From a virus: 34,280 nt of DNA. The translations under genes were made by a program, and so were the position numbers. The stretch is from the IMG/VR virus record IMGVR_UViG_3300027513_000035, positions 1 through 34,280 of that record. One strand, 5' to 3'. The notes beneath the pieces were generated by a model. That model was not told the origin of the DNA. It did not search any database and saw nothing but the letters and a program-made list of their open reading frames with translations. Positions 6,323 through 31,920 of the stretch are shown piece after piece (position 1 is the first letter of the stretch; each line of letters starts with the position of its first letter).

Positions 6323-7231
6323 TCAGGCGGCTTCGGCCGGCATCGGCAGCCGCTTGATTTCGAGATCGCGCCACGCAATCCACAGGTCGCGCACAAAGCG
6401 CTTCGCCATGAAGCGCCGCGCTTCGTTGTCGGCATGCTTCGGGCCGAGACCGCGCGCCAGGTTCCACGCCTTGCGCTCGCCGTAGACGGCACCGAACGTG
6501 CCCAGCGCATGCGCAGGCACGGCAACCGGCTTGCCGGTCTTCGCCGGCTGCTTGCCGTCCTCGTCCCGGTCGCCGCGCCACTGCGCGCGGAACATCGTGT
6601 CATCAAGAAAGGCCCACACCTCGGCGCGCCGGGCCGGGTTGTACCCGCGGCGCTTCCACTCCTCCGCGCGGTTCTCCCGCGACAGGTCGGGCGGCACGCG
6701 CCCCTGCCGGATGCCGTCCATGCAGGCGAGGCCCAGCCGCTTCCATAGCTTCGCCGGCCCGCTGTAGCTGGTGATGTCGCCTGCCTCGGCGACGATCACC
6801 GCAAGCCCAAGCTCGGCGACGCCGCGCACGGTCTTTACCCACGGCCAGATGTCGAGCTGCCGCGCGGTGACGGCCATCTGGCTTTCGATGTTGGCGCGCA
6901 GCCGGTCCCACTGCGCCCGTGCGACGTAGCTCGTCTCGATGATATTTACGACCTGGCTCGGGATGCGCGGATCGCTGGTCGGCCGCCCGGCCTTGGCGTT
7001 CGTCTCGACCGTCAACCGCAGCGCGCGGGCGACCTTAAAGATCTTCTTTCGCTCGGCTTCCGGCAGCCCGGTGTGATAGCCGAAGGATCGCGCGACCAGC
7101 GCCTCGATGGATCGGTCGCAGCGCGATTGCGAGCGGATGCAATGCCGCCGCAGGCTCTGCATCTCCATCAGCGCCGCGATGGGCGAGCCGGGTTCCGGTG
7201 CCGGCCGGATCGGAACGATTGCGGTTTTCAT
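6323..7231 (-). CDS. Protein with IS110-transposase C-terminal-like (Transposase_20) domain
   Basis: A 302-residue protein with a good ribosome binding site (AAAGGAA, 7 nt from ATG). Residues about 128-168 (WVKTVRGVAELGLAVIVAEAG followed by DITSYSGPAKLWKRLGL) match the helix-hairpin-helix part of the IS110/IS116/IS902 transposase C-terminal domain. The DEDD RuvC-like catalytic domain that real IS110 transposases have at their N-terminus is absent: residues 1-125 are helical, Arg-rich and unrelated by eye. No insertion-sequence ends are visible around it, and it sits inside the recombination/replication operon. I read it as a domesticated DNA-binding HhH protein, perhaps for branched DNA beside RusA, not as an active transposase. 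Confidence 0.6.
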   Translation of the reverse strand: MKTAIVPIRPAPEPGSPIAALMEMQSLRRHCIRSQSRCDRSIEALVARSFGYHTGLPEAERKKIFKVARALRLTVETNAKAGRPTSDPRIPSQVVNIIETSYVARAQWDRLRANIESQMAVTARQLDIWPWVKTVRGVAELGLAVIVAEAGDITSYSGPAKLWKRLGLACMDGIRQGRVPPDLSRENRAEEWKRRGYNPARRAEVWAFLDDTMFRAQWRGDRDEDGKQPAKTGKPVAVPAHALGTFGAVYGERKAWNLARGLGPKHADNEARRFMAKRFVRDLWIAWRDLEIKRLPMPAEAA

Positions 7232-10375: not shown

Positions 10376-10876
10376 GCCGATATCTGGGAGCGCATCACCG
10401 CGCTCGCCGATGGCCGGCTGGTGATCCCGCAGACCGAGGTTTGCCGGGCGCTGGGCATCACCACCGACACGCTTAACGCCGAGATCGAGGCGGGCCGGCT
10501 GCGCTATGTGCTGGTCGGCAGCCGGAAGAAGTTCAAAGCCAGCGATCTGGCGCACTACCTCCAGCAACAGGAGCGCGGACCTTGCGGGGAAAATCACTCA
10601 TCGAGGAGCGACCAGGCCGAGACGGCTGGTACGAGAAATTTCAGGTCCGAGGTCGTCGATTTCGCGACCGCATTGCAGCAGGTTCCCGCGAGGAAGCCGA
10701 AGCCGTCGCCGCCGCCACCTACGCCGCGGCCAAGGCTGGTCGGGTTGCCACACGAGAGGGCGCGCCGCACCCGCGCCAGCGGCTCACGCTCGGGGAAGCC
10801 CTCGGGCAATACTGGAAAACCCGAGGGGCGCATGTCAGCAGCGCCGACGACATCCGGCGGCACAGCCAGACCCTGA
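10349..10876 (+). CDS. Excisionase-like helix-turn-helix protein
   Basis: ATG at 10349 with AGGAG 8 nt upstream. Residues about 20-80 form a MerR/excisionase-type HTH: GRLVIPQTEVCRALGITTDT, then AGRLRYVLVGSRKKFKASDL and AHYLQQQER. It precedes the integrase gene as expected for Xis, which bends attachment-site DNA and steers integrase toward excision. The frame runs on to 10876, overlapping integrase by 295 nt; the overlapping part is Pro/Arg/Ser-rich and looks like the shadow of the integrase frame, so the folded protein is probably only the first 80 residues, with an unstructured tail if translated. Confidence 0.7.
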   Translation: MAAPTAEIDADIWERITALADGRLVIPQTEVCRALGITTDTLNAEIEAGRLRYVLVGSRKKFKASDLAHYLQQQERGPCGENHSSRSDQAETAGTRNFRSEVVDFATALQQVPARKPKPSPPPPTPRPRLVGLPHERARRTRASGSRSGKPSGNTGKPEGRMSAAPTTSGGTARP

Positions 10877-11757
10877 TTGCCGAACTCGGCAACGAGACGC
10901 CGCTCGCCGCGCTCGGCACTCGGGATCTTGAGGACTACGTCGCCCGCCGCCGGGTCAGGAAGGCGCGCAACCCGCAGACAGGCCGCATGGAACTGCGCGA
11001 CCGCGCTAACGCCTCGATCAACCGCGAAGTGGGGCTGTTGCGCTCGGTGGTGATCGCCGCCCGGCACTGGCAGGCAGCGGTGCCCGACATCGAGTGGCGC
11101 CGCGTCATGCTGCCCGAACCCGACAAGGCGCAGACGATCCTGTCCGAGGACAAGGAGGCGCTGCTGTTCCAGGCGCTGCGGCCGGATTACTGGCCGCTCA
11201 TTGAGTTCGCCTTGCAGAGCGGCGTGCGCCTGGAGAACGCCATTGGGCTGCGCTGGGACCAGATCGACTGGCAGGCCCGCGCCATCACCTTTCGCGTCAA
11301 GTCGCGCCGCCCCGGCGGCAAGCTCCTGGTGTTGCCGCTGACCGATGGCCTGGCGCAGCTCCTCGCCCGCGAGCAGGGACGCGACGCCGAGATCGTCTTC
11401 ACCTATGTTTGCCAGCGCAACCGGCACGAGCCGCACAAACGCGTCTTGCAGATAAAGGGCGAGCGCTATCCCTTCACCCATGACGGCTGGCGCAAGGAGT
11501 GGATGGCGGCGCGCCAGGCGATCGGCTTGCCGCAGTTGCGCTTTCACGATCTGCGCCACACCGCCGCCACCCGCACCTTAGCGGCCTGCGGCAATCTCAA
11601 TGTCGTGAAGGAGATGTTGGGGCACGCCGACATCGCGACGACGGCGCGCTACGCCAATTCCGACACCGCCCAGGTGCGCGCCGCGATGGAGGCGGTGGCT
11701 CGGCATTTGCCACCAAAAATGCCACCAAAACTGGTGGCGGGCAGCGACAACGCCTGA
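10582..11757 (+). CDS. int: Tyrosine recombinase, phage integrase
   Basis: A 391-residue tyrosine integrase. The start is a TTG at 10582 with AGGAG 8 nt upstream; the N-terminus (GWYEKFQVRGRRFRDR) is the usual arm-binding beta domain. The core-binding helical domain spans about 68-165. Catalytic residues are all present: R216 (QSGVRLENAIGL), K240 (FRVKSRR), H322 and R325 (RFHDLRHTAAT), H348 (MLGHADI) and nucleophile Y357 (TARYAN). The last residues (HLPPKMPPKLVAG) are encoded by the attP arm repeats GCCACCA, so the gene runs into the attachment site. It should integrate the phage into a tRNA-Pro gene, as the half tRNA directly downstream indicates. Confidence 0.95.
   Translation: MRGKSLIEERPGRDGWYEKFQVRGRRFRDRIAAGSREEAEAVAAATYAAAKAGRVATREGAPHPRQRLTLGEALGQYWKTRGAHVSSADDIRRHSQTLIAELGNETPLAALGTRDLEDYVARRRVRKARNPQTGRMELRDRANASINREVGLLRSVVIAARHWQAAVPDIEWRRVMLPEPDKAQTILSEDKEALLFQALRPDYWPLIEFALQSGVRLENAIGLRWDQIDWQARAITFRVKSRRPGGKLLVLPLTDGLAQLLAREQGRDAEIVFTYVCQRNRHEPHKRVLQIKGERYPFTHDGWRKEWMAARQAIGLPQLRFHDLRHTAATRTLAACGNLNVVKEMLGHADIATTARYANSDTAQVRAAMEAVARHLPPKMPPKLVAGSDNA
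11708..11738 (+). promoter_or_regulatory. attP left arm: integrase arm-type sites
   Basis: Two direct copies of TGCCACCAAAA (11708-11718 and 11720-11730, 12 bp apart) followed by an inverted copy (CTGGTGGC, 11731-11738). The same GCCACCA motif recurs on the other side of the half tRNA. Paired arrays around a tRNA match are typical arm-type binding sites for the integrase N-terminal domain. Confidence 0.6.
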
Positions 11758-12361: not shown

Positions 12362-12601
12362 ATGGCCGAGCGGCTGGACGCTGACGCCTGCATAGACATC
12401 GCCTGCGCTATAATCGACGACCGCGACGCCATAATAGCCCGCCTTGTTCGAGAACTGGATGGAGAGCGTGAAGCTAGGCATAAACTAGAGACGGCGTTGC
12501 GCGAGAAAGACAAAGCGCTCACCGCAGCGGGTATGGCAGCGGCTGGCCCAAGACGCCGAGCAGCAGGTACAGCAGCATCACCACGCCGATCACGACGATA
12601 A
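12362..12601 (+). CDS. Small coiled-coil protein, 79 aa
   Basis: ATG at 12362 with GGGGAG 7 nt upstream. Residues 1-57 are an acidic helix then a coiled coil (IACAIIDDRDAIIARLVREL, DGEREARHKLETALREKDKA). The last about 22 residues are Arg/Ala-rich and are encoded opposite the end of the membrane-protein gene 12519-12713, so the two genes converge and overlap by 83 bp. No family recognised; it is the last gene of the rightward block. Confidence 0.55.
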   Translation: MAERLDADACIDIACAIIDDRDAIIARLVRELDGEREARHKLETALREKDKALTAAGMAAAGPRRRAAGTAASPRRSRR

Positions 12602-12713
12602 CGATCTGCGCGATCTGCCCCAGCGGAGGCGGCAGCGGGATGATGCCGATGATGTACCAGGCCGCACCCAGCACGATCAGCAGGATCAGCAGGTAGACCA
12701 GCAGGGTGATCAT
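12519..12713 (-). CDS. 64-aa protein with two membrane spans
   Basis: Last gene of the leftward late block. Strong ribosome binding site (GGGGAGG, 7 nt) and an ATGA overlap with the upstream gene. Two hydrophobic helices (MITLLVYLLILLIVLGAAWY and IAQIVIVVIGVVMLLYLLLG) are joined by a short Pro-rich loop. It resembles small phage/prophage membrane proteins of the Thivi_2564 type. Size, topology and position at the end of the tail genes make it a holin candidate, but no holin family is recognised. Confidence 0.65.
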   Translation of the reverse strand: MITLLVYLLILLIVLGAAWYIIGIIPLPPPLGQIAQIVIVVIGVVMLLYLLLGVLGQPLPYPLR

Positions 12714-13047: not shown

Positions 13048-15510
13048 TCACGCGATCTTGATGGCGATGATCGGCGACTGTGTGAGCCCGATTCCGTCAA
13101 CCACGAATGTACCGGGCATGCTGCCGGCAGAGAAAGCCACCGTGCTGTAGACGTACATCGCGCCGGTCTGCGAGTTGGTGATGCCGGCGTGCCCGATGAG
13201 ATTGCTCAAGATGGCGTCGTCGGCATGCGACGAGGCGAAATTGCACGCCTGATTGACGATCAGCGCGAGCCAGTACCAGTCCGCCGCCAGCGCTTGGCTC
13301 ACGGCAATATCCGTTGCTCCGGTGCTGACCGTCGATGCGCTGCCGCAATACCGAAGCAGCGTCGATGGTCGGCCGTTGGCATTGTTGTAAATGCCGATCT
13401 GTACCGCGCCGCTGGCCGAGCCGACCGTGACGTTCACCTGCACCGCGCTGATCGTGACGGCGGCGCCGATCTCGATGGGCGTGGCGTAGATGCGGGTCGT
13501 GGTAACGGAAGCGTTCTGGGTGATCTCGCTCACCCGCCGGTTGTAGTAAAAGCCGCTGGCGTAGCCGGGGTGCCCTGCCGCGCCGCCGCCGCCACCGCCA
13601 CCACCGCCGGCCGGGTCCATCGGCACCGCGGGCGCATCGACGCTGAGCGGGTTGCCGAGCACCTGTCCCGGACCGCAGATCGGCATCGTCGCGGTAAGCG
13701 CCTCGAACTCAAGCGGCGTCGTGCCGACCGTGATCGTGCCGCCCGTGATCAGCACCCACGCGGTGCTGTCGAGCGTATCGCCTGCCGTGATCGGGAACGC
13801 CGAGCCTTGGATGATCTCAGTGCTGGGCTGGTCGTAATCCGCCGCCCGCGTCAGGACGAACGGCGCCGCGCCCGAGCCCGTCGCGGTGACGACATAGGCG
13901 CCGTTGTGCTGCAAGCTCGCCTGATCCTTGACGAGCACCCGGTCGCCGCCCACGACCATCAGCCCGTCAACCGCGAGTGCGCCATTCGCCGTTGCCGTCA
14001 GTGTCGCCCCGACGCCCGCCGAGCCGTTGGCGTAGGTGCATGCCGGCAGCGCCGCCGTCGTGGCGAGGTCGCACGCCTCGTTCCACAAGCTCGGCGCCAC
14101 GGCAGCCCCGCCGCCGCCCTTGACGTTGCCCCAGGTCGGGTCTGCTCCCGAACCGCGCGTCTGTAGGAAGTAGCCGCTGGTCCCCGGCCCGAGCGCCGCC
14201 CAGCCCGCCGCGCCGCGATAGATGATCTGCCCGCGGCCCGAGCCCAGCGCCGCATCGAGCAGCGCCGAGACGCTGGTCGCGCCGGGTGTCGCATCGCTGC
14301 CGCTGACGTTGCCGAGCACACTCGCCGTGGCGATCTCATCGAGGCTGATCGTGCCGCTGCCGGTGATCGGCCCGCCCGCGATGCCGCCCGCCGTCGCAAT
14401 GTTCGTCACCGTGCCGCTGCCGGCTGGCGCATCCCACGACACGTCGGCGCCGCCGCCGCCCGAGCGCAGATATTGCCCGTCGCTGCCCGGCCCGAGCACG
14501 CTCCAGCCGCTGGCGCCGCGCCGCAGCACGCTGCCGCGCGCCGAGCCGATGGCCGCATCGAGCAGCGCCGACACCGTGACGCCGGCCGGCGCATTGCTCG
14601 CGCCCGTCACGTTGGCGAGCAGGTTTAGCGAAGCGACGGGCGCGAGGCTGAGCGTGCCGCTCGTCGTGATAGGTCCGCCGATCAAACCGCTGCCACTGCC
14701 AACCGAGGTGACGCTGCCGCCGACCAGAGCCAGCGACACGTTCGTCCACTTTCCGGTGGTCGCGACGTACTGGAGCAAGCTGCCGTTCGCCGGCCCCGAG
14801 ATTGCCACATCCGACAGCCCAGCAAGGCTCGTGCTGCCGCCGCCGCCGCCAGCCGGCACGGCCCAACCGCCTGCCGCGGACAGGAACTTGCCGGCCACAT
14901 CGTCGCCCGCTGCCGGCGCCGGCACGACGCCTTTCCCGCCCGCGCTCGCGCCCGTGGAGCCGCCGAAAGCCGGCAGGATGCCCACGACTGCCACGGGCGT
15001 TTCATTGCGCCACAGGCTCGCCGGCCCGTCCCACACCAGCATGTCGGTGTCGGCCTGCCCCGACAGCGCAACATCGGTCAGGTCGGCGATGCCGCTCGTC
15101 GTGCCGCTGCCGCCGACGAGCTGCTGATAGACCGGTGCGCCGCCCTCAAGCGCGCCCCAGTCGAACGTCGCCGCGCTGGTGTGCCCGATCATCACGGCGC
15201 CGAGGCCACCGTCCGGCGCCGTAAAGAAATCCATCTCGTTGTATTCGACGCTCGGCGCCCACGAGCCGCGCCACAACGGCATCGGGTAGGTTATGGCAAT
15301 CGGGCCAAGCGTCGAGCCGTCCGATAGCCCCATCGTAAAGAGACCGCCCTCGATGTTGATGGCGATGGGCGTTACCGGCTCGACCGGGTTGTCCTCGATG
15401 TATGTAACGCGCGTCGTAATGTCGTAGAAATTGCCGTCAACCTGGGCGGGCGCGAGGTTGCTTCCCTGCCCGGTGCCCCAGGCGCCGTCAGTCCGATAGA
15501 TTATTGCCAT
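13048..15510 (-). CDS. Tail fibre / receptor-binding protein
   Basis: An 820-residue Gly/Ser/Ala-rich fibre. The shaft (about 150-480) holds repeats of the kind VTSVGSGSGLIGGPITTSGT (near 267) and VTNIATAGGIAGGPITGSGT (near 370), each followed by SALLDAA(I/L)GS and a GASGW/GAAGW-LGPG segment, typical of phage fibre shafts. A pure glycine run near residue 638 is a hinge. The last about 170 residues (from YNRRVSEITQNASV) form a beta-rich tip that probably binds the host surface. The N-terminal about 100 residues, which begin MAIIYRTDGAWG, would attach to the tail. No enzymatic motif or chaperone domain is seen. Confidence 0.8.
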   Translation of the reverse strand: MAIIYRTDGAWGTGQGSNLAPAQVDGNFYDITTRVTYIEDNPVEPVTPIAINIEGGLFTMGLSDGSTLGPIAITYPMPLWRGSWAPSVEYNEMDFFTAPDGGLGAVMIGHTSAATFDWGALEGGAPVYQQLVGGSGTTSGIADLTDVALSGQADTDMLVWDGPASLWRNETPVAVVGILPAFGGSTGASAGGKGVVPAPAAGDDVAGKFLSAAGGWAVPAGGGGGSTSLAGLSDVAISGPANGSLLQYVATTGKWTNVSLALVGGSVTSVGSGSGLIGGPITTSGTLSLAPVASLNLLANVTGASNAPAGVTVSALLDAAIGSARGSVLRRGASGWSVLGPGSDGQYLRSGGGGADVSWDAPAGSGTVTNIATAGGIAGGPITGSGTISLDEIATASVLGNVSGSDATPGATSVSALLDAALGSGRGQIIYRGAAGWAALGPGTSGYFLQTRGSGADPTWGNVKGGGGAAVAPSLWNEACDLATTAALPACTYANGSAGVGATLTATANGALAVDGLMVVGGDRVLVKDQASLQHNGAYVVTATGSGAAPFVLTRAADYDQPSTEIIQGSAFPITAGDTLDSTAWVLITGGTITVGTTPLEFEALTATMPICGPGQVLGNPLSVDAPAVPMDPAGGGGGGGGGAAGHPGYASGFYYNRRVSEITQNASVTTTRIYATPIEIGAAVTISAVQVNVTVGSASGAVQIGIYNNANGRPSTLLRYCGSASTVSTGATDIAVSQALAADWYWLALIVNQACNFASSHADDAILSNLIGHAGITNSQTGAMYVYSTVAFSAGSMPGTFVVDGIGLTQSPIIAIKIA

Positions 15511-18905: not shown

Positions 18906-19199
18906 ATGAAAAACCTGATCCTCGCCCTCGCCGCCGCTGCCTCGCTCGGCATTTCCGCCGCACAAGCGCAGTCGTCATCAACCTATGAGCGCTCCTGCTT
19001 TACCGACAGGTCGGGCGCCTATCGCTGCACCAGCACCAGCGAGTCGGAAGACTCGTTCTCGGTCATGGAATGCTCGCACCGCGGCGATGAAACGAAGTGC
19101 GAAACCAAAAACCGGGATCGGCGGATTCCCGAGCCAACCATCGAACACGTCCAGCGCGGCGGGAAGACGATCAACGTCATGCGCGGGATGCCCCGCTAG
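18906..19199 (+). CDS. Secreted Cys-rich moron protein
   Basis: A 97-residue protein on the strand opposite to all surrounding tail genes. Residues 1-22 are a clear Sec signal peptide (MKNLILALAAAASLGISAAQ, with AQA as the cleavage end). The mature part has four cysteines in the order RSCFTD, YRCTST, MECSHR, TKCETK, enough for two disulfides in the periplasm. Its stop and that of the converging tail gene share CTAG (19196-19199). A lone reversed gene with its own leader is the definition of a moron; it may be expressed in the lysogen and alter the envelope. No clear ribosome binding site, family unknown. Confidence 0.7.
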   Translation: MKNLILALAAAASLGISAAQAQSSSTYERSCFTDRSGAYRCTSTSESEDSFSVMECSHRGDETKCETKNRDRRIPEPTIEHVQRGGKTINVMRGMPR

Positions 19200-24662: not shown

Positions 24663-25309
24663 CGCAGCTTCGCCAGCACGGGATACAGATCGCAGTCGAG
24701 CGTCGTGCCGTCGCTGTAGTGCAGCGTCAGCATGCCCTCGTCGTCTACGACGAGCGCTTGCGGTAACGGCCCCGGCGGGCCGGGATAGCCGCGCTCCCCG
24801 ATTCCGGCAGGCCCCGGAGGCCCGGCTTTGCCGCGCGGCGACAACAGCCGCCAATCCTCGCCGGGACACGCCCCCGGAGCGTCGCTGACGGCCACAAACG
24901 AACTGCCGTCTAGCATCACCACGTCGAGCGCTTCATACGCCTCTGCGGCCTTCCAGTGGCCCCGGAAGGCAAGTGTGCGGCCCTCGGGTCCGCGTTCGCC
25001 TGCTGCCCCCGGAATGCCCTGTTCACCGGCCGGGCCAACGATACCCTCGCCGGGCTCGCCCCTATCTCCAGGCGGCCCGGTGGGGCCCGCCGGCCCTATC
25101 AGCGATGCAACGTGCAACGCCGCCTCGGCACGCGACGCCCGTAGCATGGCGATCTCCTCGCGCATCTCGGCCCGCATGGCCGCCCACTCGGCGCGCAGGC
25201 TCCGTTCCAGCGACGTGACATCTGCAGCAATCTCGGCCGCGAGCGCCTCAAGCGGCGCGGCGCTGGGCACGATAGGCAAGAATGGTGCGCTCGGTGTCGT
25301 CGCCGCCAT
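24659..25309 (-). CDS. Collagen-like virion protein with carbohydrate-binding-like module
   Basis: A 216-residue protein from ATG 25309 (GAGG 6 nt upstream). Order: coiled coil (20-68, LEALAAEIAADVTSLERSLR), collagen Gly-X-Y repeats (72-110, GPAGPTGPPGDRGEPGE), a compact domain (113-158, FRGHWKAAEAYEALDVVMLD then PGACPGEDWRLLSPRG) like the small chitin/carbohydrate-binding modules, a second collagen run (159-182), and a short beta tail. It probably forms a trimeric fibre. It overlaps the portal gene by 62 bp, placing it between portal and connector, an odd place for a fibre; it could be a head or neck fibre. Confidence 0.75.
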   Translation of the reverse strand: MAATTPSAPFLPIVPSAAPLEALAAEIAADVTSLERSLRAEWAAMRAEMREEIAMLRASRAEAALHVASLIGPAGPTGPPGDRGEPGEGIVGPAGEQGIPGAAGERGPEGRTLAFRGHWKAAEAYEALDVVMLDGSSFVAVSDAPGACPGEDWRLLSPRGKAGPPGPAGIGERGYPGPPGPLPQALVVDDEGMLTLHYSDGTTLDCDLYPVLAKLR

Positions 25310-26618
25310 CGGCGCCCTCGTCGGGTGTGTCTGGTTCTTCATTTCCAGCCGATGGATCGGCCGTTTCCGCCGGCTTTGGGGCGGGGTTCTTATCGTGCCA
25401 GTCCAGCCCGACGACTTGTTGTTGGACCCTGGGCATCGCGCCGTAGCCGCCCGGCACCGCCGGCAGATCCTCCGCGGCGCGAGCCTCGTCGGGTGAATAG
25501 ATGCCCGAGATCACGCCGCGAGCCAGCCCCTCGATACGCTCGCGATACGCCGAGCGCAGCAATGCCCGCGTGTCAAATTCGAGATATTCGTCAGGCATGC
25601 CCTTCAAATTGTACAAGAGCCCGAACGCCTCCTCGACGTGGTTCAGCCAGAACCCCAAGCCCTTCGAGATCCAATCTTGCATGTGCAGTTCGGCACTCGC
25701 ATACGTCGTCTGCCCGATGCCGAGAATGGGCAGCGGTATCCGCATGCAGAGCGCAACCTGCTCGTCGGTCAGCTTCAGCATCTCGGCAAGCTGCCCGTCC
25801 ACTGCCGTCGTCTCGATCAGGTGCGCCTTCAACCCGTGCGTCGCGAGCGGCGTGTTGCCGGCGTTCTCGCCGCTGGTCTTCTCGCGCCAGCGCTGCGACA
25901 GCAGCTCGGCCTGCTCCTGCGTCAGCACCTGATCGGTTTCGAGAATAAAGCTCGGCCGGGCGCGGTTGAGGTAGAACGCGATCTGCTGGTTAAGCACCGC
26001 ATCCGACATCGCCAGATCGAGCGCGGCTGCCAGGATCGGCGACTCGCCGCGCAACGGGTGCCGCGGTGTCTGAAGCCGTACATGCAGCACGTCGCGCGCC
26101 GGCACCGGCAACGACAGATCGAACCGCGCCTCGATGATCTCGTTGCCGGAAATCGCATAGAAGATGCTGCCGTCCTCGGCGAGCCGCGCCTGGCCCTCGC
26201 GCATCAGGTGAAGCTGGTCGATCTCGCCGCGGTTGTTGCGCAGCCCCAGCGCGAACGCCTCGCCGCGCTCGTAAGCCCGGCGCGTCAGGTTCAGCATAAA
26301 GTCGCTGATCGACTGATAGTCGTTCGGGCGTTTGCAGACGCGGGTCAATGCGCTGTTCGTCACCCGCTCCCGCCCGCCGTTCGGCAACGTGCGCCAATGA
26401 TCCGGCGCGCACATTGCGCTCGTCTGCGCGTAGCTCGAAACGCAGGCTTCCACCATCGCCGAGCGCGTGCCGTAGGGCTGAAGGTTGTGGCCGCTTTGCC
26501 ACCAGTTGACGTAACGCCCGGCCGACGCCGACAGCCAGCCGCCCGAGAGCAGGTATGGCCCCGGTCTGTAGGCTCCTTCCGGCGCCCGCCCGAGCATGCG
26601 GGTGAGCCAGTTCGCCAC
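25248..26618 (-). CDS. Portal protein, HK97 family
   Basis: A 456-residue portal. It starts at GTG 26618 with GAGGGGG 6 nt upstream. Recognisable are HNLQPYGTRSAMVEACVSSY near the N-terminus, CKRPNDYQSISDFMLNLTRR, DVLHVRLQTPRHPLRGESPI (a conserved portal stretch), RPSFILETDQVLTQEQAELL and MRIPLPILGIGQTTYASAEL, then an acidic Pro-rich tail. The dodecamer forms the DNA gate used by TerL. Unusually, it is not next to the protease/capsid gene: four genes for exported or Pro-rich proteins lie between. Confidence 0.88.
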   Translation of the reverse strand: MANWLTRMLGRAPEGAYRPGPYLLSGGWLSASAGRYVNWWQSGHNLQPYGTRSAMVEACVSSYAQTSAMCAPDHWRTLPNGGRERVTNSALTRVCKRPNDYQSISDFMLNLTRRAYERGEAFALGLRNNRGEIDQLHLMREGQARLAEDGSIFYAISGNEIIEARFDLSLPVPARDVLHVRLQTPRHPLRGESPILAAALDLAMSDAVLNQQIAFYLNRARPSFILETDQVLTQEQAELLSQRWREKTSGENAGNTPLATHGLKAHLIETTAVDGQLAEMLKLTDEQVALCMRIPLPILGIGQTTYASAELHMQDWISKGLGFWLNHVEEAFGLLYNLKGMPDEYLEFDTRALLRSAYRERIEGLARGVISGIYSPDEARAAEDLPAVPGGYGAMPRVQQQVVGLDWHDKNPAPKPAETADPSAGNEEPDTPDEGADGGDDTERTILAYRAQRRAA

Positions 26619-26678
26619 CTACTGCCCCCTCGCCATCGGGTTCAGCAGGGCCAGCAGGAGGGCCGGGGCGCGGGTCAT
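26619..26678 (-). CDS. 19-aa coupling peptide before the portal gene
   Basis: ATG overlaps the stop of the beta-helix gene as ATGA, and its TAG lies immediately before the portal GTG. The product (MTRAPALLLALLNPMARGQ) is short and hydrophobic. It carries the portal ribosome binding site in its last codons, so its main effect may be to bring ribosomes to the portal start. Low confidence as a functional peptide. Confidence 0.3.
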   Translation of the reverse strand: MTRAPALLLALLNPMARGQ

Positions 26679-28321
26679 TGGCATGCGGCACACCGGAACC
26701 AGGAGCCGGCCCCAAACGTCCAGGCCGCTGGTGTCGTGCCCGTCAGCGTCGTCAGCGGGTCGAGCACCGGCCCGGTCATCGTCAGGGCGGTGATGTTGAA
26801 CTTGGTGCCGAGGCTAACCGTGCAGCCAACCCGCGGACTCGCCGGCATCGCCACGGTGTGCCCCGCAATCCCGCTGGTGTGGGTGAACAGGGTCGTGCCG
26901 CAGTTGAGGTTAGTCGTACCACCATCAGTCGCCAGGACGAAGCTCTTCGGGGTGATGATGCTGCCGTTAAACATCGGCTGTAGGCTGGTGTTGTTAGATG
27001 GGCCGCCGTTGTCGATTACAGCGCTGGTAATGCCGCTCACTGCATCGTTATGGCGCTCGTACCACCAAATAGACCCCGCTTCCAGCGTTACCCCGTTCAT
27101 CGTCACGCCGACTTGCGGATTACGATAAATGTTGCCGTAGACCTGCCCGTGCTGCCCGTCCGTGGTCAGGAAATTGACCAGGGCCGTGTTGGTGCCAGTG
27201 ACGCTCAGCGTATTGGCAATGATGCTCGCGCCAAACGCGCCGCGCAGGTTGAACCCACCGCCGACCGCAACCGGCGACGGCATGCCGCCGGCACCGATAA
27301 ACATCTCGTTGCCGATCGCCTTCAGGTTCTGCACCGGGGCGGCGTCGACAAAATACCCGTCGATCTGCGCCTCATTGTCCAAGAGCGTGTACTCCGGCGG
27401 GCTGCCCGCGCCCGGCATGTTCTCCACATAGAGGAACCGCTGCCCGCGCACATGGTCATTGTGCAGCCAGCGCGGCCCCTGCTGGGCCACGGTGCTGTTG
27501 TTGACGATATGATAGCCGTTGATCCAAGAATGACTGTAGTTGTCGCTGAACTTGTTGCTGTAGTGGCCGAGGAGCGTGTTGTTGTCCTCGAAATAGACGA
27601 AATCAGTACTTCCAGGCAGTGTACCGTAAGCATGATTGTGCTCGATCACCGCGTAACTACACGCCAGACAGTGGATCGCCCGGCTGAAATAGCCCGATCC
27701 GACCTTGCTGAAATCCATGTAATCGACGGTCAGCGTCGGGGTCGCCAGGTTGAACTTCGCGTTGATCGCAATACCGCCGGCGCCAGCGTTCAGCCAGGTC
27801 ATGTTGCTGACACGCAGGGCGCCGGAGCGAGGCAAGCTGCCGCCCTGGCCGAAATCGAGCAGGTTGACGCCGGCGCTGCCGGTGTACTGGATGACCGTGC
27901 TCTGCGGCCCGGCGCCGCGCAGGTAGAGCGTCGTGTCATCCGCCACCAGGGTGCTGGCGCCGTGCATGTAGTAGCCCGGCGGCCAGTAAATCTCCGCACC
28001 TCTGGCGCCGGTCATGCCGGCGATCTCCGGCAGGTTACGGGCGTAGTCGATCGCCGCCTGCGCCGCGCACCAGTCGATCTCCTGAGTCAGCGCCGTGGCC
28101 GTTGGGCAGACCGCCTGCGCCTCAGCCAAGCTGCCGTACCGGGTCGAGAGCGAGTGACTCCCACCATCGCCAATCGCGCCATAATCCTTGACGCTCAGCA
28201 CCAACCCAAGATTACGCGCCGCCTCCGGCATCTTTGCGTTGCCGGCGTCCTGAAACATATCGGCATGCGCGCCGAACGACAGCAGCAACGGAAGAATAGC
28301 GACGGCAGCCAAGCGGCGCAC
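26675..28321 (-). CDS. Signal-peptide-bearing beta-helix protein (pectate-lyase/tailspike-like)
   Basis: A 548-residue protein from a GTG start. Residues 1-20 are a Sec signal peptide (MRRLAAVAILPLLLSFGAHA, ending AHA). The mature N-terminus has LSVKDYGAIGDGG, the opening motif of pectate-lyase/tailspike beta-helix proteins, followed by about 450 residues of short beta turns with many Asn, Gly and His (YAVIEHNHAYG, VNNSTVAQQGPRWLHNDHV). It ends with two Cys-containing strands. It should cleave or bind a surface polysaccharide. A signal peptide is out of place on a virion spike, since virions assemble in the cytoplasm, so the protein may be exported by the infected cell or lysogen. Confidence 0.75.
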   Translation of the reverse strand: MRRLAAVAILPLLLSFGAHADMFQDAGNAKMPEAARNLGLVLSVKDYGAIGDGGSHSLSTRYGSLAEAQAVCPTATALTQEIDWCAAQAAIDYARNLPEIAGMTGARGAEIYWPPGYYMHGASTLVADDTTLYLRGAGPQSTVIQYTGSAGVNLLDFGQGGSLPRSGALRVSNMTWLNAGAGGIAINAKFNLATPTLTVDYMDFSKVGSGYFSRAIHCLACSYAVIEHNHAYGTLPGSTDFVYFEDNNTLLGHYSNKFSDNYSHSWINGYHIVNNSTVAQQGPRWLHNDHVRGQRFLYVENMPGAGSPPEYTLLDNEAQIDGYFVDAAPVQNLKAIGNEMFIGAGGMPSPVAVGGGFNLRGAFGASIIANTLSVTGTNTALVNFLTTDGQHGQVYGNIYRNPQVGVTMNGVTLEAGSIWWYERHNDAVSGITSAVIDNGGPSNNTSLQPMFNGSIITPKSFVLATDGGTTNLNCGTTLFTHTSGIAGHTVAMPASPRVGCTVSLGTKFNITALTMTGPVLDPLTTLTGTTPAAWTFGAGSWFRCAACQ

Positions 28322-28322
28322 G

Positions 28323-29204
28323 TCAGAAGCCCCAAAACGAGCGCTGGTTCGTCACCAGCGTCGCCCGCTCGGTCAACGTCAGCGGGTAGTTGTCCCAAAC
28401 GATCGCCTCACCGTGATTGCACGTCGTCGCAGCGGCACCGACAATCCCCTGACTGCCCGCCGTCACGTTGCCCGCCGCGCTCGCCGTCACCTCCGTCCCA
28501 TCCGTATTAGCCGCGCTCGACGCCCCATTGATCGCCGCCGCGCTGGCGTGCCAATTATCATTGGCCGCCGTCACCGTCATAAACCCGGCGCCGCCACCCC
28601 GCGCTATCCAGGTGCCGACGCCGGTGTTGCCGTTAATCCGGTTATTGAGACCGTTCTGCTGTATAAAAACACATGCGCCGGTTGCCGCGCCGTCCCGCTT
28701 CGCCACCACCGAGAGACCGACCACACCGGTAGCCGGCGTCACCGTCGCACTCGTCAGCAAAGTCTGCGTCGCCGCCGTGGTTCGCCAGCACGGCAAGGTA
28801 CCCTGACAATTGAAAATCAACTGCGGCTGATTAGCCGCCGTGGTTTGCACAAGGTCTTTGGCACCACCCGATTGATCGTACCAAGTCCGGCCAAAACAAC
28901 TCGTCGCCGCACAGTGCGACACCGCCGCCGCCGCGTCCCACGGCGCCCCCGTGAAGGAGGTGAACCCGAGGAAAGCGATGTCCAGCTCGGCGTTGTCGCT
29001 GGCCCGCCGGATGCGGATCGCACTGCCTGTATAGGCGGTGCGCAACTTGCGAAAAGAATACGCCCCGCTCGGGGTGGTGAAAGCGTCCAGCGGCGCCGCT
29101 GCGGCCGGGATGATCCGGTGCCCGCGGTACGGTGCGTGCATCCGCGCCTCGGCTGGCGCCACAAACGCCAGCAACAGCCCGGCGAGCAGCAGTGCCACGC
29201 GCAT
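28323..29204 (-). CDS. Signal-peptide-bearing arabinofuranosidase-B-like protein
   Basis: A 293-residue protein. Residues 1-21 form a signal peptide (MRVALLLAGLLLAFVAPAEA, AEA end). The mature part matches the concanavalin-like domain of alpha-L-arabinofuranosidase B: AYSFRKLRTAYTGSAIRIRR-ASDNAELDI, then a Cys pair (SHCAATSCF) and RTWYDQSGGAKDL, all hallmark segments of that family. Further Cys pairs suggest folding in the periplasm. It lies between two other exported proteins. Enzyme or glycan-binding role toward plant or bacterial surface sugars is likely; catalytic residues cannot be assigned by eye. Confidence 0.75.
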   Translation of the reverse strand: MRVALLLAGLLLAFVAPAEARMHAPYRGHRIIPAAAAPLDAFTTPSGAYSFRKLRTAYTGSAIRIRRASDNAELDIAFLGFTSFTGAPWDAAAAVSHCAATSCFGRTWYDQSGGAKDLVQTTAANQPQLIFNCQGTLPCWRTTAATQTLLTSATVTPATGVVGLSVVAKRDGAATGACVFIQQNGLNNRINGNTGVGTWIARGGGAGFMTVTAANDNWHASAAAINGASSAANTDGTEVTASAAGNVTAGSQGIVGAAATTCNHGEAIVWDNYPLTLTERATLVTNQRSFWGF

Positions 29205-29207
29205 CGA

Positions 29208-29564
29208 TCAAATGCCCGTGCCTGGGGTCACATACAATGTCGCGGTGCCCGTGCCGGTAATGCCGGCGACGTGCGTCTGATTGCAGCCGAGAATCTCGAC
29301 GCTGCCCGGTGCAACCGGCAGGCTGGCGGCAACAGTCGCAACAACGGCCACGGTGCCGCATTCGATGAAGACGGCGACGCTGCCGGCGTTGTACAGGCGC
29401 ACATGCTGCGTCCCGCCGGCCGCGGCTCGGATCTGCACGCGCCCGGACGCAGCGGTGGCCGCCAGCGTCACGGTGGCCGCGCCGTCCGTCCGAAATGCCG
29501 TGTCGCTCTGCGCCGCGCCGGTTGCCGCCAGCAGCAGCGCCGCGGCAAGGGCAATGCGTCTCAT
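29208..29564 (-). CDS. Signal-peptide-bearing small beta-sandwich protein
   Basis: A 118-residue protein: signal peptide MRRIALAAALLLAATGAAQS, then a beta-rich mature part (ATVTLAATAASGRVQIRAAA, QHVRLYNAGSVAVFIECGTV, GSVEILGCNQTHVAGITGTG) with two Cys. The style, with a strand reading HVRLYNAGSVAVFIECGT, resembles small phage appendage proteins that cap or decorate spikes. Its start overlaps the preceding stop as ATGA; it ends 3 nt before the arabinofuranosidase-like gene. First of three consecutive exported proteins. Confidence 0.65.
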   Translation of the reverse strand: MRRIALAAALLLAATGAAQSDTAFRTDGAATVTLAATAASGRVQIRAAAGGTQHVRLYNAGSVAVFIECGTVAVVATVAASLPVAPGSVEILGCNQTHVAGITGTGTATLYVTPGTGI

Positions 29565-29944
29565 CGCGTGGTGTATCCCGGCCCGCTCGTCGCAGGGCGC
29601 ACATCGCGCTCGCGCCGCGGCACGCCCTGCGGCTCGCCCGCCTTTGGCTCTGCTGCGGGGATGCCCTCTGCCATCGCGTCGAGCTCGGCCTGCGTCGGGG
29701 TGGCAGGCGGCGGCACTATCGGCTGAGCCGGCTCGCTGCGCGGCGCGGCTGCCGTTACCGGGCCGGGCGGCGGCGGGGTGTAGGTGCCCGTCGCCATCGC
29801 ATCAAGCTCCTCTTGCGTCGGGGTGGCCGGCGGCGGTGTCACGGGTGTCGGCGGCGGCTCGCCCTCGCGCTGGTCGGGCCGCGGTTGCGGCGGCGGCGGT
29901 GCCGGCCGCGGCTCCGGTGCCGGATCGGGTGTCGATTGCGCCAT
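29561..29944 (-). CDS. Proline-rich protein with duplicated ELDAMA motif
   Basis: A 127-residue, Pro/Glu/Ala-rich, probably unfolded protein. Strong ribosome binding site (GGAGG, 6 nt before ATG 29944). It contains the segment PPPATPTQ(E/A)ELDAMA-x-G twice, about 45 residues apart, so it arose by internal duplication. It is the first gene after the capsid gene. Similar short TPTQxELDAM peptides occur in small structural-region proteins of other phages; function unknown, perhaps a capsid-associated or assembly peptide. Confidence 0.6.
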   Translation of the reverse strand: MAQSTPDPAPEPRPAPPPPQPRPDQREGEPPPTPVTPPPATPTQEELDAMATGTYTPPPPGPVTAAAPRSEPAQPIVPPPATPTQAELDAMAEGIPAAEPKAGEPQGVPRRERDVRPATSGPGYTTR

Positions 29945-30003: not shown

Positions 30004-31920
30004 TTATGCCGGCGCCCAGTTGGCCCCGGTGAGCCATTGCACCATGCCGCTGCGGCGCATCGCCCAGGTCGTCGGCAAGATGAGACGCAGTGCCAGTTGG
30101 TTGGTCTGGTACATGCTCTCGACCGGCGACGACGCCGTGCCGGAGACAATGTGCAACGGCGTCGTGTCCTCGATATGCAAGGTCGCCTCCTCCGACACCA
30201 TGAACTCCGGGGTGCCCTGCACCGACACAAAGTCCTCGGCCTCGACCACGATCACCGTCCCGGCCGCAACAACAGTGCTCTCCAGCACCGTCAGACGGCT
30301 GGTAAATTGATCCGACCATCCGAAGCCGCTATTGCCCGGCCCCGGTGCCGTCGCTAGCTGCATTGCCTGCGCCGGGTTGATCATCATCACCAGGTTGTTG
30401 CCGGCATTCGCCGTGTAAAACGGCCCGGTCAACTTCGTGAGATCGCCGAGAATGGCGCCGTAGCCGCCGCCCGCCGTGGCGGTCAGCGCCGACACGCCGT
30501 TAAGCAATCCCGCCGGCCGCGTGCTGCCGCTGCCGCCGCCCGCCGTGGCGTCGATCAGCAGCGTGTCGATCATCAGCCCGGTCTTGCGGATGATCGCGTC
30601 GCGCACCAGCCCCTCAAGGCTCGGGTTGCTGTACATCGCGATTTCGCGGCTGTAGCGGGTGATAACACCCACTTTGTGCGGGTAGAGGCTCAGCGACGTG
30701 AACCCCATACGGCGCACCGGGATGGGCTGCGCCTCGCCGACGAAGGAGCCCGCGATGCTCGGGGTAGCCGCTTCCGACGGGATGCGGATGACACCCGCAT
30801 CCGGCCCGAATTGCAGCGACGTGCCCCGCGCCGCCAGCGGTGGCAACAACCGCCGTGCCTCACGCGGTGTCAGCATCGCCGCCGTCGCCGTCTGCACCAG
30901 TTCCGCCGCCCAGGTGGCGAGCGTCGTCGATGCCCCGGCCGGCGCCGCGCGGGTCAGAACACCGGCTATCACACGGGTCGCCTCGTCGCCCTCGTAGCGT
31001 TCGCTCAGCGCCGCATCGAGCGACTGCGGGTTGACGCTGCCGGTCTTCAAATGCGCCCGCAACGCCGCCGCCCCGGCCCGCCAGAAATACTCCTGCGGCT
31101 CGGGCTCGCGCAGCGACATGCCGAGGGGCCGGCGCATCACGGCCGGCGCCCGGATCTCGGGCTGCTGCGCCAACGTGCGCGCCGCCAGCGCCTTCTCGGT
31201 GCGCTCCAGCGACGCCAGCCGCTCCGACACCGCCTCGATGGTGTCCTGCAACGCCTGCGCCCGCTCGGTGTCGTGGTTGGCGTCCTTGGTGTGTTCGGTA
31301 AGCTCATCCCGCGCGGCATTCAGCCGTGCCTGGGCGTCGGTAATCTGCTCGGTGATGTTCATGGGAGTTCCCCGCATTGCGGGTTTCGACACGGCATGCC
31401 CGCCGCTTCTCACCACTCCCGGCCTTGTTGCGGCATGCTCGCCGAAGGCTAGGTTCATGGTGCCGTCGCTGATGTTCAGCGATTTCGCGATGCTCAGTGC
31501 CGCCGGGTTGGCGGGCACGCTGACGATCGATGTTTCGAGAAGTTCCTGCCGCGTGTAGCGGGTGCCAGCCATCGGCCGCTTCGGGTCGATGGGCTCGCTG
31601 TCGATGCCGCGGAACCCGACGCTCGTCGCGCGCAAAATATCCTGCTCGATCAGCGACAGGATCTCGTCGGTACGCTGGCTGGTGCCCACCTTCGCTGGCA
31701 CAAAGTCCGCCACCAGCCGCCCATCCTCGACGCGGATATTCACCCACTTGCCGATCGGCTGGTGCGGCGAATGATTGAATAGCGCAATCGGATTGGACCG
31801 GAACGAATCGAGCAGCCAGCCATCCGGCTCGATGATGTCGCCATAGCGGTCCTGGGTGGCGTCGCTCAGCACATAGGAGAGCGTCCCGTCCACCTTGCCG
31901 GCGAACTCGCGTAGAAGCAT
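30004..31920 (-). CDS. Prohead protease-major capsid protein fusion
   Basis: A single 638-residue frame with the HK97-type protease first and the major capsid protein second. Residues 1-145 are the U35 protease: GDIIEPDGWLLDSFRSNPIA, LFNHSPHQPIGKW (His50), ATSVGFRGID, and LLETSIVSVPANPAA (nucleophile Ser131). Residues 187-260 are a coiled-coil scaffold (delta) domain, and about 270-638 is the HK97 fold capsid protein (IRIPSEAATPSIAGSFVGEA, PHKVGVITRYSREIAMYSNP, FVSVQGTPEFMVSEEATLHI). Start ATG 31920 has AAGGA upstream. An internal ATG at 31362 (M187) has GGGGAA 7 nt before it and could make capsid without protease. Confidence 0.88.
   Translation of the reverse strand: MLLREFAGKVDGTLSYVLSDATQDRYGDIIEPDGWLLDSFRSNPIALFNHSPHQPIGKWVNIRVEDGRLVADFVPAKVGTSQRTDEILSLIEQDILRATSVGFRGIDSEPIDPKRPMAGTRYTRQELLETSIVSVPANPAALSIAKSLNISDGTMNLAFGEHAATRPGVVRSGGHAVSKPAMRGTPMNITEQITDAQARLNAARDELTEHTKDANHDTERAQALQDTIEAVSERLASLERTEKALAARTLAQQPEIRAPAVMRRPLGMSLREPEPQEYFWRAGAAALRAHLKTGSVNPQSLDAALSERYEGDEATRVIAGVLTRAAPAGASTTLATWAAELVQTATAAMLTPREARRLLPPLAARGTSLQFGPDAGVIRIPSEAATPSIAGSFVGEAQPIPVRRMGFTSLSLYPHKVGVITRYSREIAMYSNPSLEGLVRDAIIRKTGLMIDTLLIDATAGGGSGSTRPAGLLNGVSALTATAGGGYGAILGDLTKLTGPFYTANAGNNLVMMINPAQAMQLATAPGPGNSGFGWSDQFTSRLTVLESTVVAAGTVIVVEAEDFVSVQGTPEFMVSEEATLHIEDTTPLHIVSGTASSPVESMYQTNQLALRLILPTTWAMRRSGMVQWLTGANWAPA
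31360..31378 (-). promoter_or_regulatory. Candidate internal ribosome binding site and ATG for capsid alone
   Basis: GGGGAA followed 7 nt later by ATG (31362) within the fused frame, exactly at the join between the protease and the scaffold domain. It would allow many capsid subunits per protease, as in separate-gene phages. Seen in sequence; use is inferred. Confidence 0.4.

Follow-up and report, generated by a model that had tools for sequence, protein, structure and literature searches.

A predicted Sec-exported three-gene cassette related to spike, fibre and head proteins in tailed phages

The virus record IMGVR_UViG_3300027513_000035 of IMG/VR, analysed here over its whole length of 34,280 bases (hereafter the window), carries three consecutive genes, termed P3, P2 and P1, within the structural operon of a phage. 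On the minus strand the order is terminase small and large subunits, a protease-capsid fusion, a proline-rich open reading frame (ORF), P3, P2, P1 and the portal; 3' of the portal on the same strand follow a collagen-like gene and then a siphovirus tail module. An original prediction, made from the sequence alone, had placed three consecutive signal-bearing genes between capsid and portal, and these ORFs were confirmed on the minus strand:

29208-29564, minus strand: P3, 118 amino acids (aa); signal at about residues 1-18 (29511-29564), followed by a small beta-rich domain that contains two cysteines
28323-29204, minus strand: P2, 293 aa; signal at residues 1-20 (29145-29204), GH54/LamG-like jelly roll at 36-293 with six cysteines
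26675-28321, minus strand: P1, 548 aa, GTG start; signal at residues 1-20 (28262-28321), tailspike-like start at 38-97, variable body

The genes are closely packed, with an ATGA overlap between the proline-rich ORF and P3, 3 nt between P3 and P2, 1 nt between P2 and P1, and 56 nt between P1 and the portal. Contamination with host DNA was rejected on the grounds of these tight junctions within a structural operon, similar G+C contents (0.645 versus 0.655) and the recovery of the genes on many independent contigs.

Signal sequences and cysteine pattern

Each of the three N-termini has a brief basic stretch followed by a hydrophobic core and by a site resembling A-x-A, with small residues at positions -3 and -1: MRRLAAVAILPLLLSFGAHA, cut before DMFQD, in P1; MRVALLLAGLLLAFVAPAEA, cut before RMHAPYRG, in P2; and MRRIALAAALLLAATGAA, cut before QSDTAFR, in P3. 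Signals were called with a home-made score rather than SignalP, on genes from a home-made caller, and cleavage points were set by comparison with relatives. Four of the 42 called window genes score at least 20, namely P1, P2, P3 and an unrelated plus-strand ORF (18906-19199). Scores of at least 25 were found for 47 of 53 P1 relatives, 47 of 61 P2 relatives and 47 of 50 P3 relatives, those below this value being mostly truncated, mis-called or non-cassette homologues. The same threshold was reached by none of the capsid, portal, large terminase subunit (TerL) or collagen-like genes at these loci, and by 56 of 729 unassigned genes from these phages, those 56 including several additional exported fibre-like genes. 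The signal parts, with their last three residues left out, share 26-30% pairwise identity among relatives. The mature starts are more conserved, at 55% over the first nine residues of P2 (RMHAPYRGH, within a conserved RMHAPYRGHRI) and 70% over the first 18 of P1 (DMYQDASNAKLPEARxNL), and in the P2 set aligned first, positions -3 and -1 are invariably Ala.

Exported bacterial proteins prefer even numbers of cysteines (PMC7678975), and even numbers in the mature part, as used in that study, were also found in the trio. Counted in the mature parts of non-redundant relatives, cysteines are even in number in 36 of 36 P1 proteins (four to 16 cysteines), 30 of 30 P2 proteins and 23 of 24 P3 proteins, the P3 proteins carrying two; the extra cysteine of the one odd P3 (L050) lies inside the signal according to its relatives, which corrects the P3 count to 24 of 24. 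Signal-less proteins of the same phages have even counts in 61% of cases when they hold at least two cysteines and in 64% when they hold at least four. Under a simple binomial model with a rate of 0.61, the probability of 36 even counts out of 36 is about 2e-8; this value treats as independent relatives that are not so, although the P1 bodies are largely non-homologous. Loci found later through the P1 leader, and thus held out, gave even counts in 10 of 11 P1-type proteins, six cysteines in five of five P2 proteins and two in four of four P3 proteins. Cysteines also change pairwise: three P2 proteins acquire two together (columns 121 and 127), and in two P3 proteins one is lost and another gained six alignment columns on (113 to 119). 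Within other phages, the signal-less P2-like proteins L074, L075, L076, L083 and L086 hold no cysteine or one, and the 1536-aa L072 holds two; neither of two signal-less P3-like proteins, L127 of a head module and L126 close to a terminase-like gene, has a cysteine at the paired positions.

Because the signal sequences drift while the mature starts stay conserved, and because mature cysteine counts are even, the signals are taken to be in use, and P1, P2 and P3 are predicted with high confidence to be exported via Sec. The claim that each protein opens with a Sec-type signal is thus borne out by the home-made score, the conserved mature starts, the even and co-varying cysteines and the signal-less, cysteine-less homologues. 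A purely fortuitous origin of the hydrophobic starts was rejected on the same contrast between drifting signals and conserved mature starts. The N-termini might instead serve trimerization or attachment in spikes of the ordinary cytoplasmic kind, as phage spikes normally lack signals and the calls rest on a home-made score; the invariant Ala residues in the first P2 set, the drifting hydrophobic core and the even, co-varying cysteines make this explanation extremely improbable.

Folds and relatives of the three proteins

P1 consists of the signal, a conserved mature motif (DMFQDAGNAKMPEAARNLG, residues 21-39) and a highly variable body. The leader motif is conserved across 54 IMG/VR loci and was never found inside a protein; in some phages it is grafted onto bodies of other families (c107, c16 and c113). 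Residues 38-93 match the tailspike structures 4ru5 (E 1.5e-13) and 4ru4 (E 7e-12), which we take to be phi297 gp27 and LKA1 gp49, respectively, and P1 also matches the tail-protein families phrog_13768 and phrog_29076. Beyond residues 38-93 the protein matched nothing found, the window P1 itself has no Pfam match, and a search of viral contigs with whole P1 returned no relative, the body being unique there and the leader alone shared. Among P1 proteins scanned, six of 13 contain the pectate-lyase domain PF12708, and other relatives match tail, spike and appendage PHROGs. By homology, the window P1 is spike-like solely through its N-terminal 60 residues and its relatives; its initial description as a pectate-lyase/tailspike-like beta-helix finds matches at the start of the protein and in about half of the scanned family, and a beta-helix body of the window P1 is putative.

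P2 matches PF09206 (E 7e-10; 38.9 bits, cut-off 25), with sequence similarity to GH54 confined to about residues 38-127. Its AlphaFold2 (AF2) model has a mean predicted local distance difference test (pLDDT) value of 88.8 and superimposes on 1wd3, the catalytic domain of AkAbfB, with Z 23.8 and a root-mean-square deviation of 2.8 over 248 residues, the next fold reaching Z 14.7. Neurotoxin binding domains also appeared in the fold search and were rejected as instances of the common lectin-type jelly roll, at Z far below that of GH54. A C-x(4)-C pair preceding YDQSG is common to P2 and AkAbfB. The active site was located through L125, a true bacterial GH54. No adjacent cysteines occur in any of 21 P2 sequences, the vicinal pair being present in AkAbfB and L125. 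Opposite MVDME and GGDN, no acid is conserved among the P2 sequences, in a part of the alignment that is weak, similarity ending near residue 127; these motifs presumably contain the nucleophile Glu221 and the acid/base Asp297, a numbering taken from the title of an E221Q entry and general knowledge. Because P2 lacks the vicinal cysteines of the active site and shows no acids aligned with the catalytic ones in this weak stretch, it is probably a lectin-like binder rather than an enzyme. The proposed arabinofuranosidase-B-like domain is therefore retained as a fold, but should not be taken to denote an activity.

Relatives of P2 are virion or tail proteins in Gordonia, Arthrobacter, Synechococcus and other phages. 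Its signal-less homologues comprise phrog_10356 and proteins of Gordonia, Arthrobacter and Aphanizomenon phages, for which minor tail protein and virion structural protein are frequent annotations, and two further homologues (L119 and L120) are located in tail modules. That of L119 adjoins a tail-tip-like gene of 1299 aa in an apparent gene-transfer-agent (GTA) or tail cluster. In another phage type, possibly of Bacteroidota (L080 and L081), a signal-bearing P2-like protein lies beside a signal-bearing 455-aa protein, and exported fibre-like genes may hence extend beyond the phage group of the window. Secreted bacterial P2-like proteins (L116 and L117) are encoded beside groES-groEL in a tandem arrangement that includes related exported genes and apparently lies outside any prophage. 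P3 resembles small head-region phage proteins, its signal-less homologue L127 standing near a capsid-like gene; a search of P3 against named phages gave no match.

Mobility, host and phage setting

IMG/VR yielded 72 loci for P2, four for P3 (simple search) and the 54 already mentioned for the P1 leader; several loci are the same contig under different ids, and the contigs are fragments. At most loci P3, P2 and P1 are adjacent and in that order. Three carrier backbones were distinguished: a window-like one with the capsid-protease fusion and a PF04860 portal, one with a different terminase and a phrog_1216 portal, and one with a phrog_38 terminase in which the cassette lies near tail genes. The cassette was seen between capsid and portal, between TerL and capsid, between the small terminase subunit and TerL, and at the tail end. 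Found alongside unrelated terminases and portals, the trio is a mobile cassette in unrelated phages, at no fewer than four genome positions. Its insertion between capsid and portal, as first described, is true of the window but not tied to that gap.

Relatives of the window portal number 18 in 17 alphaproteobacterial genomes, most of them 50-66% identical, and the genera include Corticibacterium, Enterovirga, Aureimonas, Mesorhizobium, Methylobacterium, Devosia, Bradyrhizobium, Sphingomonas and Reyranella. In those genomes whose pre-portal interval was read, nothing but one to three small genes without a signal is present there, and the final one usually corresponds to the proline-rich ORF (YPSQADLD/PTPTQEEND-type, immediately before the portal). 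The interval being empty of the trio in cultured prophages, the window lineage is taken to carry an insertion. On the strength of the portal relatives, the host is likely an alphaproteobacterium, probably of the Hyphomicrobiales. A P2 profile had no match among the genome contigs, and profile searches across about 1,180 genomes of alphaproteobacteria and related groups found no complete cassette. What these genomes did contain were P2 or P3 homologues lacking a signal, several of them within modules of phage or GTA-like type, along with secreted P2-like proteins of bacteria adjacent to groEL and a single true GH54. Other features of the window are as follows:

30004-31920, minus strand: S78 protease fused to an HK97-type major capsid protein, 638 aa (PF04586, PF05065; phrog_617, E 1e-71)
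29561-29944, minus strand: proline-rich pre-portal ORF, the usual left neighbour of the portal in cassette-free prophages
25248-26618, minus strand: portal protein (PF04860, E 7e-59)
18906-19199, plus strand: 97-aa ORF with a clear signal (MKNLILALAAAASLGISAAQA, cut before QSSS) and no family match; the sole plus-strand gene called in the tail module, flanked by two minus-strand genes
13048-15510, minus strand: conventional fibre-like gene (phrog_11518 tail fiber and others), no signal
12519-12713: 64-aa membrane protein, the only lysis-gene candidate in the window
10582-11757: integrase
6323-7231, minus strand: transposase-like gene in the early region (phrog_4285, E 5e-12)

Through the signal-less gene at 13048-15510, the phage is predicted to possess cytoplasmic fibres besides the trio. 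No endolysin or holin was recognized among the window genes scanned with Pfam or PHROGs, a gap into which the trio might fit as exported hydrolases breaching the envelope or capsule from within, the more so as signal-bearing phage lysins and esterases are known (PMC6116005; PMC10975493). Against such a role in lysis, Pfam and PHROGs reveal no peptidoglycan-active domain in the trio, the bodies are spike-like and the cassette does not occupy a lysis module, rendering it very unlikely.

In other carriers the cassette is accompanied by exported fibre families (c16, c27, c49, c107, c113 and c222). The exported companions are relatives of PHROG tail fibres or exopolysaccharide (EPS) depolymerases, a PEP-CTERM protein (c21) and a glycosidase-like protein (c28). 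The c28 proteins (L028, L038, L044, L046 and L052) and one at L041:13811-15031 are WbsX/DUF5010-like proteins of about 400 aa, glycosidase-like and with an RR-type leader, whose gene immediately follows a P1-like or c27 gene. At L051:2478-3149, with relatives in L047, L048, L053, L055, L060 and L062, lies a phage-borne exported protein of about 223 aa that has a C-terminal PEP-CTERM sorting motif just under the Pfam cut-off and adjoins P3 in most carriers. One carrier's TerL (L066:6501-9590, 1029 aa) seems to contain two intein-like insertions (CFGRGTKVL...VTHNS and CLAKGTQVL...LVSNS).

In some relatives a PEP-CTERM partner points to host-surface sorting and, together with the signals, the adhesin-like folds and the integrase, raises the alternative of lysogenic conversion or surface display, in which export in lysogens or early in infection would alter the host surface, for example by blocking superinfection or changing attachment. 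The cassette is nonetheless tightly coupled to late structural genes, its sites change yet stay within late modules, and no lipobox, membrane anchor or autotransporter was seen in the trio; this alternative is accordingly regarded as improbable.

Action after export and comparison with known systems

The reading favoured here, though with only even confidence, is that of a mobile late cassette of Sec-exported, disulfide-stabilized spike-, fibre- and head-type proteins that act mostly free on polysaccharide after release. It builds on features read from the sequence, namely the signals, operon placement, conserved cleavage context, disulfide-type cysteine pattern, virion-protein homology and mobility. 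As proposed, P3, P2 and P1 would be translated late, along with the structural genes and on top of the phage's own cytoplasmic tail fibres, would cross the inner membrane via Sec, and would in fact lose their signals after the A-x-A or similar site. They would then fold and oxidize in the periplasm and be freed at lysis, or leak earlier. Acting mostly free, P2 and P3 would bind, and the variable P1 body would bind or degrade surface or matrix polysaccharide, to the benefit of the progeny. The suggested secreted polysaccharide-degrading system or pseudo-spike is consistent with export, the tailspike-like start of P1 and the pectate-lyase domain among its relatives; an arabinofuranosidase activity of P2 as part of it is not supported.

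The strongest rival holds the trio to be virion appendages matured in the periplasm, exported and disulfide-bonded, that dock on finished particles at lysis. In other phages, each of the three has homologues among virion proteins or in virion modules, P1 is built like a tailspike, its N-terminus conserved and its body exchangeable, the cassette remains among head and tail genes, and the mature motif is common to several different fibre families. No docking partner was identified, and free or surface-bound action is favoured because the phages keep separate signal-less fibres and because the signal takes the protein out of the cytoplasmic compartment of assembly. Docking is accordingly rated a possible but less probable outcome. 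A general form of it, in which many uncultured tailed phages build a virion part outside the cytoplasm, with leader-bearing spikes and fibres (the common leader being the signal plus DMYxDASNAKLPxARxNLG) Sec-exported, disulfide-bonded and docked at lysis from a mobile cassette, is somewhat more doubtful still. Several observations weigh against free action of an exported, disulfide-stabilized cassette: a virion-docking spike, too, would combine a conserved N-terminal motif and an exchanged body, some companion families have odd cysteine numbers (seven and five in c107, seven in c28), the window P1, without a Pfam match, has an AF2 model with a pLDDT of only 35.8, and the signal score is our own heuristic.

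For spikes and fibres of tailed phages, the accepted view is that folding and assembly take place in the reducing environment of the cytoplasm, ordinary ones being built inside the cell. If the favoured reading or its docking rival is true, tailed phages would have their own secreted system for clearing matrix or for adhesion, or some would add virion parts outside the cytoplasm. The cassette would also be a source of naturally secreted, disulfide-stabilized, exchangeable modules that bind or degrade polysaccharide. Two cautions follow for annotation: a spike homologue in a phage is not always a virion protein, and a signal-bearing gene on a viral contig is not always a host gene. In the literature consulted, signal-bearing phage proteins are lysins and spanin-type or lysis-module proteins (PMC6116005; PMC10975493; PMC12571629), among them the lysin Lys44 of phage fOg44 and the esterase gp40 of phage PBR31 (PMC6116005; PMC10975493). 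Target proteins of phage diversity-generating retroelements (DGR) were noted to lack signals, and a missing signal peptide has been taken as support for a phage origin of spike- and fibre-type proteins (PMC6199706). In agreement with the original prediction, which knew of no equivalent, no description of an exported spike cassette was found in the open-access full-text literature, a weak negative given that subscription papers lay outside its scope.

Compared with known systems, P1 resembles the phi297 gp27 and LKA1 gp49 tailspikes in sharing, over residues 38-93, the beginning of the spike body and in placing a conserved N-terminus ahead of a variable body. It differs in having a signal, even cysteine numbers and no recognizable virion-binding head domain, and in the position of its gene between capsid and portal. 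The whole of mature P2 has the fold of AkAbfB (1wd3), shares its C-x(4)-C pair and, like it, is secreted by prediction, but lacks the vicinal cysteine pair and ends with this domain, without the AbfB C-terminal part. The same domain makes up the signal-less P2 homologues (phrog_10356, the Gordonia, Arthrobacter and Aphanizomenon phages, L119 and L120), which differ in lacking a signal wherever they were examined and in retaining at most a few of the six P2 cysteines. The pIII protein of filamentous phages is likewise a Sec-exported, disulfide-bonded phage adhesin; filamentous virions, however, assemble in the membrane, whereas the cassette phages are tailed double-stranded DNA phages. Free EPS depolymerases and the halos they form represent a diffusible polysaccharide-degrading activity around plaques, described generally as virion parts or free enzyme rather than as a three-gene Sec-exported cassette (PMC6116005).

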